Below are positions 4,043 through 35,271 of a stretch of 35,271 nucleotides of DNA, piece by piece. Position numbers and translations under genes: made by a program. The stretch comes from a virus: the IMG/VR virus record IMGVR_UViG_3300037502_001792, positions 1 to 35,271 of that record; one strand, written 5' to 3'. The notes below the pieces were generated by a model that was not told the DNA's origin, ran no database searches, and saw nothing but the letters and a program-made list of their open reading frames with translations. Within the stretch, counting starts at the first letter, position 1. Every line of letters begins with the position of its first letter.

Positions 4043-6022
4043 TTATTTACCAAATACATACCAGTTTTGACTAAGAACATAGGCACCAGAGCATCCTGAG
4101 TAATAGGTTGCTGCTTCGCAAGTTGTTTGATCCCCGTAACCAGAACACGACGGATCTCCTTCGCAAAGGCTATCAATGCTGTTCCAAGTGCAGTTTGAGT
4201 AACTTTGTGTGCATCCTGCTGTTGTTCCGCACGTCGCTTCATTCAAGCCGGAGCATGATTCAACTCGGCGAAATGGACTTATGTGCACCCAATCTTTGAA
4301 ATTACTCAGCGTGTACGAAGTCGTGTGATTTATTTGCTGAGTGCCGTAGGGGACAATAATCACATCATTATTTGCAGAACTTGCATTATAGACCCAATAG
4401 TCTCTGTCAGGACAGGTGTTCATGTCTGGCAGTGTTAATGTAATAGCGGTTTGCCAAGTGCATCCAGGCTCGGCGTTGCAATTTGTTGAATCATCAATGC
4501 CGCCACAAGCTGCCGTTCCGCTGCATGACGCGCCGTAAGTGCCGGTACAGTTGCCAGTCGCATACGTTCCAGTACACGAATACGAATCGTAAGTTCCAGA
4601 ACAACTAACGTACCAAGACCCACCAGTACAAGCGCCAGTGCCGCTATCATAGGTACAATAACTACCACCATTTGCTGCATTACAAGCTGTGCCGTCACCG
4701 CCACCATCGCTGTAATTAGAACAATCATCAAAGTTTTGCGTACATCCGCTAGTAGACCCACACGCTGTTTCATCCAGGCTAGAACAGTCTTGCGGCGTGT
4801 TAGTCCAAGAACAGCCAGTGTAGCTTTCGCAGGTTCCTTGATCGCCAAAAGCTGAGCACGATGCCTGCTCCCAAGTACAGCCAGTTTGCCCTTCGCATCC
4901 ACTTTGGTCGCCATTGAAAGTGCTGCATGAATAACCTGCAAACCACGAGCATCCACCGTGAGCATCACGAGCAAGACAATCGGTTTCGTTTGTGTATGAA
5001 GAACAAGCGTTTGTAGGAACTCCACTACAAACAGCGGTCGCTGGATCTGCAATCCATTCTGTTGCGGTGTTATCAAGAGTCTGATTAGCTGTAACGTACT
5101 TTACTCGAAGTGCTGTACCACCTGAACTTACTAGCGTACTTGTAGGAGCTGATGTACCACCTGCATATACACCCTGTTGAAAACCGCCATAGCCGTAATG
5201 CGCGAATGCTGCTTGTACGTTGTAACTGATGAGTGTATTGGTAGGTTGGTAGTAAACTGCTTGACCGTTCCCACCGCTGATCCAAGTGGAAACCTCACCA
5301 CTTGAGTTGACTCCTATATGTCCTTTGTTAACTCCCCCAAATCTAAAATCCAGCCATGTGTAAGATCCACTGTTGTCAAACAGGGCGTGACGTGTGGTCC
5401 CTGGTTGCCCGTTCGATTTACCAGACGCTGCAATCGTAAGCACACCGCTAAATGCTGTGCCCTCAATGAGCATATTGCCCGATTGAACGTTGCCGCCAGT
5501 CAACAGTTTTGCAGATACGTTATCAATCGTTAATCGTGCTGTGTTACTTGGAGTAAATACCAATCCAGCAGAAGTGTTTGCGCATACAATTCGATAAGAA
5601 TATGTTCCGGCGGTTGTTAGTGTAGCAAGCGTATTCCCAGCAAAAGTTACCACCACGGAACCAGCGGTAAAGTTTGAGATAGTAAACGATACGTCAAATC
5701 GTTCACCTAGGTTAAGCGTGGGAGTTTGATTTAGCGTTGCAGTCCCATTTGACGTTTTTGATACAGAGTTGCTGCTGTATGCCCATCCAGCTCCAACATT
5801 CCATCCGGTTGCGCTTCCTGTAAACGATCCGTTTGTAATGCGCTCTGATGCACCCGATGCCACTGAAAGTGTGTCAGTAGAATCATTAAAATTAAAGTTT
5901 TGTGTATCTTGCGCAATTTGACCAGTCGCTCCACCAAACGCAACTCCGCCAGTTGTAAGAACTGGAACACCATCAACAGTCCAATCTAAATTACCTGTGA
6001 ACGGATTAAAAACGTAAGGCAT
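4043..6022 (-). CDS. Cysteine-rich tail fibre or spike protein
   Basis: A 659-residue protein. The N-terminus (MPYVFNPFTGNLDW) is typical of phage fibre proteins that attach through the first domain. Residues about 40-330 are Gly/Ser/Thr-rich beta repeats. Residues about 333-545 and 586-648 contain some 33 cysteines arranged in repeats of the form C-S-x(6-8)-C-x(4-6)-G-C-[ST]-[WQ], several with the core DQxxCExxTGCxW. Such modules are expected to be held by disulfides, in the manner of small extracellular PSI-like or EGF-like modules. The start abuts the preceding stop (TAATG type). Its position between portal and head genes is unusual for a receptor-binding fibre. A receptor-binding or surface-decoration role is inferred. 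Confidence 0.7.
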   Translation of the reverse strand: MPYVFNPFTGNLDWTVDGVPVLTTGGVAFGGATGQIAQDTQNFNFNDSTDTLSVASGASERITNGSFTGSATGWNVGAGWAYSSNSVSKTSNGTATLNQTPTLNLGERFDVSFTISNFTAGSVVVTFAGNTLATLTTAGTYSYRIVCANTSAGLVFTPSNTARLTIDNVSAKLLTGGNVQSGNMLIEGTAFSGVLTIAASGKSNGQPGTTRHALFDNSGSYTWLDFRFGGVNKGHIGVNSSGEVSTWISGGNGQAVYYQPTNTLISYNVQAAFAHYGYGGFQQGVYAGGTSAPTSTLVSSGGTALRVKYVTANQTLDNTATEWIADPATAVCSGVPTNACSSYTNETDCLARDAHGGCSWFAGYSCSTFNGDQSGCEGQTGCTWEQASCSAFGDQGTCESYTGCSWTNTPQDCSSLDETACGSTSGCTQNFDDCSNYSDGGGDGTACNAANGGSYCTYDSGTGACTGGSWYVSCSGTYDSYSCTGTYATGNCTGTYGASCSGTAACGGIDDSTNCNAEPGCTWQTAITLTLPDMNTCPDRDYWVYNASSANNDVIIVPYGTQQINHTTSYTLSNFKDWVHISPFRRVESCSGLNEATCGTTAGCTQSYSNCTWNSIDSLCEGDPSCSGYGDQTTCEAATYYSGCSGAYVLSQNWYVFGK

Positions 6023-14473: not shown

Positions 14474-14514
14474 AGCCCCAGCCTTACCTCTCGGTAGGGT
14501 TGGGGCTTCTTATT
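14474..14514 (+). terminator. Rho-independent terminator of the first early operon
   Basis: AGCCCCA (14474-14480) pairs with TGGGGCT (14501-14507). The stem continues inside as CCTTACC (14482-14488) with GGTAGGG (14493-14499) around a TCTC loop. It is followed by TCTTATT. This 14-15 bp stem ends rightward transcription before the convergent initiator gene. Confidence 0.8.
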
Positions 14515-14545: not shown

Positions 14546-15046
14546 CTAATCAGGGATATCATCAGGGTAGTACCCATGATCGTGAAAGAATCGATCCCTA
14601 TCACTCAACGGCTTCTTAGGCTCAAAATAGGATCTAGTTATGTTGATCTTAGTATTTTGGATCTTAGTAGATGGATCTAAGTAAGTAGATCTTAGTAGTC
14701 GGCCAGATTGGCCGGGGTTGGTGGCCAAATTGGCCGGGGTTGCGGTCAGATTGGCCGACCCCCTGGCCAGATTGGCCGGGGTTAGTGTGTGCAAATATCG
14801 CCGATTATTTGCTATGGCTCGCTTCAGGTATCCAGCGGTCACCAACTTGGTCACAGCTCTCGCTACCGCTCGCGGAGATGACTGTAAAGCCTCTGCAATT
14901 GCTTCCCGACTTGCAAAGCATTGCTTCTGAGATTCCTCAAATTGCTCCACATAGGCAAAGATGGCAGCTTCAAGGAGCCCCAAGGGTAGTAGCTCTACAT
15001 ATAACTTGAGAAAATACCGGGGTGCGGGTAGAGTTGGTTTGTTCAT
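14546..15046 (-). CDS. Replication initiator, winged-helix, with the origin inside the gene
   Basis: A 166-residue protein. I choose ATG at 15046 (MNKPTLPAPRYF), with AAGGAA upstream, over a longer frame. Residues about 10-85 form a winged-helix domain: LLEAAIFAYVEQF, then SREAIAEALQSSPRAVARAVTKLVTAGYL as the recognition region, then a basic wing. This is typical of phage and plasmid initiators and of lambda O-type N-termini. Residues about 88-138 are low-complexity (repeated ANLA/ANLT and Ser/Thr), because the DNA there is the iteron and GATC arrays. The tail (about 140-166) is acidic and may load a helicase. The gene is transcribed against its early neighbours. Confidence 0.75.
   Translation of the reverse strand: MNKPTLPAPRYFLKLYVELLPLGLLEAAIFAYVEQFEESQKQCFASREAIAEALQSSPRAVARAVTKLVTAGYLKRAIANNRRYLHTLTPANLARGSANLTATPANLATNPGQSGRLLRSTYLDPSTKIQNTKINITRSYFEPKKPLSDRDRFFHDHGYYPDDIPD
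14631..14700. repeat. Five tandem GATC-led 14-15 bp AT-rich repeats (probable unwinding element)
   Basis: Units start at 14631, 14645, 14660, 14674 and 14688 and read GATCTAGTTATGTT, GATCTTAGTATTTTG, GATCTTAGTAGATG, GATCTAAGTAAGTA and GATCTTAGTAGTC. Spacing is 14, 15, 14 and 14. The plan recalls the AT-rich GATC 13-mers of E. coli oriC. Spacing not divisible by three means the protein reading frame shifts from unit to unit, so selection is on DNA. A further GATC lies at 14593. Confidence 0.85.
14701..14783. repeat. Four 21-22 bp iterons with dyads (probable replication origin)
   Basis: Copies start at 14701, 14723, 14744 and 14765. The core is GGYCARATTGGCCG, followed by GGGTT in three copies and ACCCC in the third. 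Each has the dyad GGCCA-n3-TGGCC (one mismatch in copies 2 and 3). Spacing of 22, 21 and 21 places them on one face of the helix. Four iterons inside the initiator gene match the plan of lambda ori in gene O. Confidence 0.88.
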
Positions 15047-35049: not shown

Positions 35050-35271
35050 TTAGTTCACCTTGAGGTGCGCTACAGAACCAAGCTCTACAGCAGCAGCGCC
35101 AGTTGTAGCTGCAAGTCCAACAACATAAGAAATCTTAGTTGTTGAAGCATCATCAGCCACACCAGCAGTTGCAGTTGTGTTCAGGTTGTTCTTGGCAACA
35201 TAGCTTGCAGCTAGCTTGCCCTTAATTCCTGATCCAACTCCACCGCCATTAAGCCCACCAACCCATACCCA
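35050..35271 (-). CDS. Small virion (decoration-like) protein, 3' part of gene crossing the join
   Basis: This is the C-terminal part of the protein that begins at 391. Bases 35145-35271 repeat 1-127, and bases 35144-35050 give the last 32 residues (STTKISYVVGLAATTGAAA...HLKVN) and stop TAA at 35052-35050, followed by a second TAA. The closed frame across the join confirms the circular map. Confidence 0.8.
   Translation of the reverse strand, partial: WVWVGGLNGGGVGSGIKGKLAASYVAKNNLNTTATAGVADDASTTKISYVVGLAATTGAAAVELGSVAHLKVN
35145..35271. repeat. Terminal direct repeat, right copy
   Basis: Exact copy of bases 1-127. See the left copy for interpretation as the overlap of a circular assembly. 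Confidence 0.95.

Follow-up and report, generated by a model that had tools for sequence, protein, structure and literature searches.

The phage genome described here very probably has its replication origin embedded in its own initiator gene, where an array of four iterons and an adjoining block of AT-rich repeats occupy the coding region between a winged-helix domain and a short C-terminal tail. Origins within initiator genes have been described as single cases (lambda, pSK41, pPR9), and here about 50 natural versions can be compared; because these have different sites, joint change of specificity in an initiator and its site copies becomes testable. Comparison of the sequences brings out the anatomy of the array, constraint at the level of the DNA, covariation between protein and site, and modular exchange.

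Genome and initiator protein

The window (the whole 35,271-base stretch of DNA analysed) begins and ends with an exact 127-bp repeat (1–127 and 35145–35271), indicating that the genome is circular and 35,144 bp long. The genome also encodes a RecT-like annealing protein, a RusA-like resolvase and a DNA methyltransferase, and the phage proteins scanned include no recognisable helicase, P-like helicase loader, primase or polymerase, although small ORFs without profiles may escape such a scan. Two scans of genome contigs, one with the initiator and one with the terminase, found no prophage or host; the best phage matches of the capsid and RecT proteins are distant with mixed hosts, there are weak matches to Salmonella and Alteromonas phages, and Pam5 and MW202489 show no annotated equivalent. 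GC skew reaches a minimum near 12–13 kb, which is not used as evidence for an origin because it coincides with a switch in gene direction.

The initiator gene is transcribed on the minus strand (Table 1). Its product matches the HTH_36 domain (PF13730; 27.1 bits against a cut-off of 25) and PHROG replication-initiation families, and among the aligned family members both PHROG 270 and PF13730 (E≤0.1) are found in 20 of 20; together with the AlphaFold2 fold these profiles agree with the first-pass annotation, which had placed the repeats inside a winged-helix initiator gene. That annotation also considered the 166-residue protein unlike lambda O beyond the winged helix, and Phage_rep_O (PF04492) indeed has no match in the window record at E≤10; RepA_N (PF06970) likewise has none at E≤10. 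Residues 96–142, encoded by the iterons and AT-rich repeats, mostly have pLDDT values below 50, such that the linker between winged helix and tail is apparently disordered, and the tail contains one predicted helix (residues 149–156).

Table 1. Features of the initiator gene and putative origin (window coordinates).
Feature	Coordinates	Strand	Basis
Initiator gene, 166 aa (MNKPTL...YPDDIPD)	14546–15046	-	ORF, PF13730, PHROG, ~50 homologues in viral contigs
Winged-helix DNA-binding domain, residues ~17–88	14783–14998	-	AlphaFold2 model, pLDDT blocks 78–93
Recognition helix, residues 58–71; R59 codon 14870–14872	14834–14875	-	Predicted helix; covariation of R59 with base -2
Iteron 1 (gene order), CGGCCAATCTGGCCA	14764–14778	-	Pattern match
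Iteron 2, CGGCCAATCTGACCG	14743–14757	-	Pattern match
Iteron 3, CGGCCAATTTGGCCA	14722–14736	-	Pattern match
Iteron 4, CGGCCAATCTGGCCG; reading frame unlike iterons 1–3	14700–14714	-	Pattern match
AT-rich block, five 10-mers TACTAAGATC/TACTTAGATC/TAACTAGATC; putative DNA unwinding element	14631–14697	-	Repeats and AT content
Short C-terminal tail, residues 141–166, ending YPDDIPD	14549–14626	-	Tail types common to relatives and swapped

Iterons and AT-rich repeats

The motif GGYCARATTGGCCG occurs in four zero-mismatch copies starting at 14701, 14723, 14744 and 14765 (spacing 22, 21 and 21), exactly as first described. When the gene was shuffled by dinucleotide 200 times the longest chain had two copies, which excludes chance for the four-copy array. 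On the minus strand each iteron reads CGGCC-AATYT-GGCCR or nearly so, forming a semi-palindrome of 15 bp (e.g. 14700–14714) whose dyad arms match at 5 of 5 positions in one copy and 4 of 5 in the other three. The dyad symmetry claimed earlier is thus present, with a core that extends one base further left than had been stated. The proposal that the copies lie on one face of the helix fits the 21–22 bp spacing in the window but is no rule for the family, as spacings in relatives range from 21 to 24 bp.

The iterons are adjoined by a second array, overlooked in the first-pass annotation, of five AT-rich TACTWAGATC repeats with first bases at 14697, 14683, 14669, 14654 and 14640 (spacing 14, 14, 15 and 14), one of them a degenerate copy (TAACTAGATC). 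Tandem Repeats Finder, run on all 35,271 bases with a score of at least 40, reports only these two arrays (14700–14783, and the 14-bp array at 14645–14698). The A+T content of the block reaches 0.72, compared with local values of 0.35–0.57, and is the peak of the region profiled; its composition and repeats suggest that it is likely a DNA unwinding element. No DnaA boxes were found near the origin in the window, and the strand asymmetry in purines typical of the lambda AT tract is weak in the family (0.58 vs 0.53), and the window shows none (0.50).

Relatives and shared layout

Searches with the window initiator alone (viral contigs, genome contigs, and tblastn in phages and plasmids) yielded nothing useful because the window's version is divergent. 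Relatives were instead reached through the terminase, which identified 80 viral contigs, many of which have an initiator gene in the corresponding position. Since the sequences in alignment A1 were too varied for pattern scanning, subgroup alignments were used, and these scans plus one further member widened the set to ~50 distinct initiators; a last scan, with L037 as query, gave no new lineage.

These share a common plan of winged helix, semi-palindromic iterons with an A-rich centre, AT-rich repeats of 13–15 bp, and a short tail. Comparison of spacing across the related phages shows that the position of the array is kept, with 3–7 iterons lying directly after the winged helix in every full-length homologue examined, mostly at intervals of 21–24 bp. 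The AT-rich repeats follow directly after the iterons and have the general form TACHAAKAAAA, of which the first five letters were fixed by the search pattern; no more than 2 of 40 shuffles matched the AT-repeat score in any locus scored, these loci being a subset of the family. In the 65 nt after the iterons the A+T content averages 0.72, compared with 0.55 in the winged-helix part, and it is higher in all 47 of 47 genes. The repeats offer a view of this putative unwinding element across the family. A single lineage (L004, L131, L132 and L133) also has two perfect DnaA boxes (TTATCCACA), 11 bp apart and just before the iterons, at approximately nt 252–271 of the initiator gene.

The module is absent from four terminase relatives with long upstream DNA (L031, L013, L015 and L023). 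Upstream of the terminase, L031 has an intergenic AT-rich tract (4700–4915) that contains ATATGCATA and TAATTAGATC repeats and may be a replication module of another kind. In L141 (3639–3950), L142 (3639–3950), L055 (704–1015) and L103 (1555–1878), a second, small ORF for a winged-helix protein is located directly 5′ of the initiator gene.

Conservation of the array as DNA

The four window copies encode, in gene order, PANLA, SANLT, PANLA and, with a one-base shift, NPGQSG, so that the same DNA repeat specifies ANLA-type residues in some copies and NPGQSG in another, as the first-pass annotation had read it. Its broader claim, that the DNA and not the protein is conserved, holds across the family: in 43 of 46 arrays the iterons are spread over two or more reading frames (all copies share one frame in L057, L099 and L100), and fourfold-site identity over the whole array region in four subgroups is 0.84, 0.97, 0.98 and 0.97, compared with 0.50, 0.69, 0.43 and 0.44 in the winged-helix part of the same subgroups. 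Whole-array figures only are given, as silent-site figures with the iterons masked are partly circular, and recent gene conversion of the array could add to the identity. The shifting frames and conserved silent sites together indicate that the array DNA is under selection.

A protein-level explanation, in which the repeats matter as a repetitive peptide in the linker and the repetition in the DNA is incidental, would suit the three of four window copies that share a frame and encode xANLx, as well as the three co-framed arrays. We consider it scarcely credible, given the frame shifts and silent sites just described, the predicted disorder of the segment, and encoded linker peptides that are wholly unlike between lineages; among the relatives compared there is none that retains the peptide repeat and has lost the DNA repeat.

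Covariation of the recognition helix and half-site

The iterons have an A-rich centre, and the half-sites on either side of it differ by lineage (GGATC, GGGTC, GTGCC, TGTTC, TGTCC, TGGCC, GTATC, CGGCC and others); the half-site consensus letters were compiled by script and then checked by eye, with L103 and L105 having one clear palindromic copy each and L016 being mixed at position -3. In 37 sequences with a CAAAWTG-type core, Arg59 (window numbering, in the recognition helix) occurs with C at half-site position -2 in 13 of 13 and other residues occur with T in 24 of 24, while the rule does not extend to ~18 of 55 rows, most of which have iterons of other types that have no such core. Residue 59 is the only single winged-helix residue that predicts the base without error (22 of 22 in a non-redundant set; the next best predicts 21). 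On a tree built without residues 57–63, residue 59 and base -2 each change seven times. There are seven independent pairs on the best tree. The three on well-supported branches all agree, a number too small to reach significance by itself (sign test p=0.25); the remaining pairs agree too, as follows from the coincidence of both traits across the 37 rows.

The sister sequences L094 and L095 are a ready-made natural experiment on specificity. Their first 57 residues are identical, they differ by P58R (own numbering) in the recognition helix with few later changes, and all five iterons differ, from GGGATC/GAGATC to GGTGCC.

Exchange of C-terminal tails

The C-terminal tails form several classes, with endings such as DDIPE/DDLPD and KAMVRRK, whose distribution does not track the winged-helix lineages. 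Pairs that share a tail include L055/L096, L134/L142, L125/L030, L042/L135 and L046/L132, with winged helices that are at most 39% identical in amino acid sequence or unalignable, whereas the tail and downstream DNA are 83–91% identical. In the pairs with a measured iteron end the similarity begins ~55–130 nt past the last iteron, near the end of the AT-rich repeats. By these alignments, tails together with downstream DNA have been shuffled between unrelated winged helices, and the swaps suggest where in the protein contact with the host replisome is made.

We give roughly an even chance to a fuller reading of these patterns, in which the presence or absence of Arg59 would set one base in every iteron, all copies changing in concert, and the embedded origin would act as a portable specificity cassette, recombining freely with several unrelated replisome-recruiting tails through a breakpoint that lies immediately beyond the iterons.

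Origin function and alternatives

The embedded origin suggested by the first-pass annotation draws support from the comparisons of array position, reading frames, silent sites and the AT-rich block, and indirectly from the covariation of recognition helix and half-site. In the mechanism proposed, winged-helix dimers would bind each iteron via the recognition helix, in which R59 would recognise the inner C:G pair of the half-sites; the complex so formed would strain and open the AT-rich repeats; and the exchangeable tail would recruit host helicase or primase machinery, a role suggested by the lack of any recognised phage helicase, loader, primase or polymerase. With the origin embedded, recognition helix and sites stay within ~175 bp of each other, and they could be inherited or exchanged together as one cassette while the tail changes separately.

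The same repeats might be read as the operator of a winged-helix transcription regulator acting on its own or neighbouring genes, since semi-palindromic sites fit a dimeric regulator and the best Foldseek E-values of the winged helix are to MarR-family regulators; RepA-type structures were also matched (4pt7, 4pql, 4ro3 and 5kbj; query-normalised TM 0.39–0.66, E-values not significant), with 4pt7 (0.66), 4pql (0.64) and 4ro3 (0.64) having the top query-normalised TM among the PDB matches listed. The iterons, however, lie ~270–345 bp into the gene rather than at a promoter, a pattern scan of the window found no other good copy, and the adjoining AT-rich repeats in relatives, the DnaA boxes of one lineage and the PHROG replication-initiation profiles in 20 of 20 members also argue against an operator, which we regard as unlikely. 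A centromere-like partitioning or incompatibility site is more improbable still: TubR-like winged helices, which bind iterons, are among the weak structure-database matches, but no partner ATPase or tubulin-like gene was recognised in the window and the AT-rich repeats would be left unexplained.

Comparison with known replicons

Taking the array as an embedded origin, the lambda-like layout proposed at first is right as a plan, with iterons and an AT tract in the initiator gene, although by analogy the best functional precedent is the pSK41/pPR9-type plasmid initiators, and no P-like loader was recognised. In lambda O/ori-lambda and Stx phage origins, the iterons lie mid-gene and an AT-rich tract comes after them, on the same side as here (PMC7466680, PMC6022878). 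Like lambda O, the phage initiator has N-terminal DNA-binding and putative C-terminal recruitment parts with a linker between, and four iterons with dyad symmetry. It differs in its size (166 aa vs 299 aa), in its lack of a Phage_rep_O match and of a recognised P gene, and in an AT-rich tract composed of regular 14-bp repeats.

In its working parts the phage module appears closer to pSK41 Rep, and above all to pPR9. The pSK41 rep gene contains a central origin with four Rep boxes bound by the N-terminal winged helix, the ori-coded linker is dispensable, and the recruitment domain is separate and C-terminal (PMC5703833). The staphylococcal pPR9/pUSA03-type initiator is chimeric, with a PF13730 N-terminal domain and its own origin and the rest pSK41-like, and a pPR9 mini-replicon replicates (PMC5703833); the phage N-terminal domain is likewise PF13730. 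The iterons of RepA_N origins consist of inverted repeats that converge on a poly-A tract (PMC7145576), and the phage iterons also converge on an A-rich centre. Unlike these plasmids, the phage family has no RepA_N match, its post-origin C-terminal part is ~25–100 aa and of several unrelated types (120 aa in pSK41/pPR9), and its iterons are adjoined by regular AT-rich repeats of 13–15 bp.

AT-rich 13-mers are known as unwinding elements in RK2 oriV and oriC (PMC5043065), where initiator sites are similarly flanked by an array of AT-rich ~13-bp repeats; the phage repeats are unrelated in sequence, lie within the initiator gene, and have a putative unwinding role. In PLE RepA/ICP1 Odn replicons the DNA-binding domain covaries with its iterons, and both are exchanged together against a C-terminal domain that stays conserved (PMC8263062, PMC7145576), possibly driven by an origin-directed nuclease (PMC8263062). 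The PLE origin is noncoding, whereas in the phage family a single stretch of DNA would serve as both origin and gene, and one helix residue tracks one site base. The unusual aspects here are the scale of natural variation, the link between one residue and one base, and the freely swapped tails.

Other features

A terminator-like hairpin (14474–14507) is situated between the convergent initiator gene and plus-strand early genes, and a GGGTAGGG-type sequence recurs 3′ of most homologues. In the structural region, a minus-strand gene (4043–6022) encodes a 659-aa protein whose second half is Cys-rich with repeated C-x(n)-C motifs.
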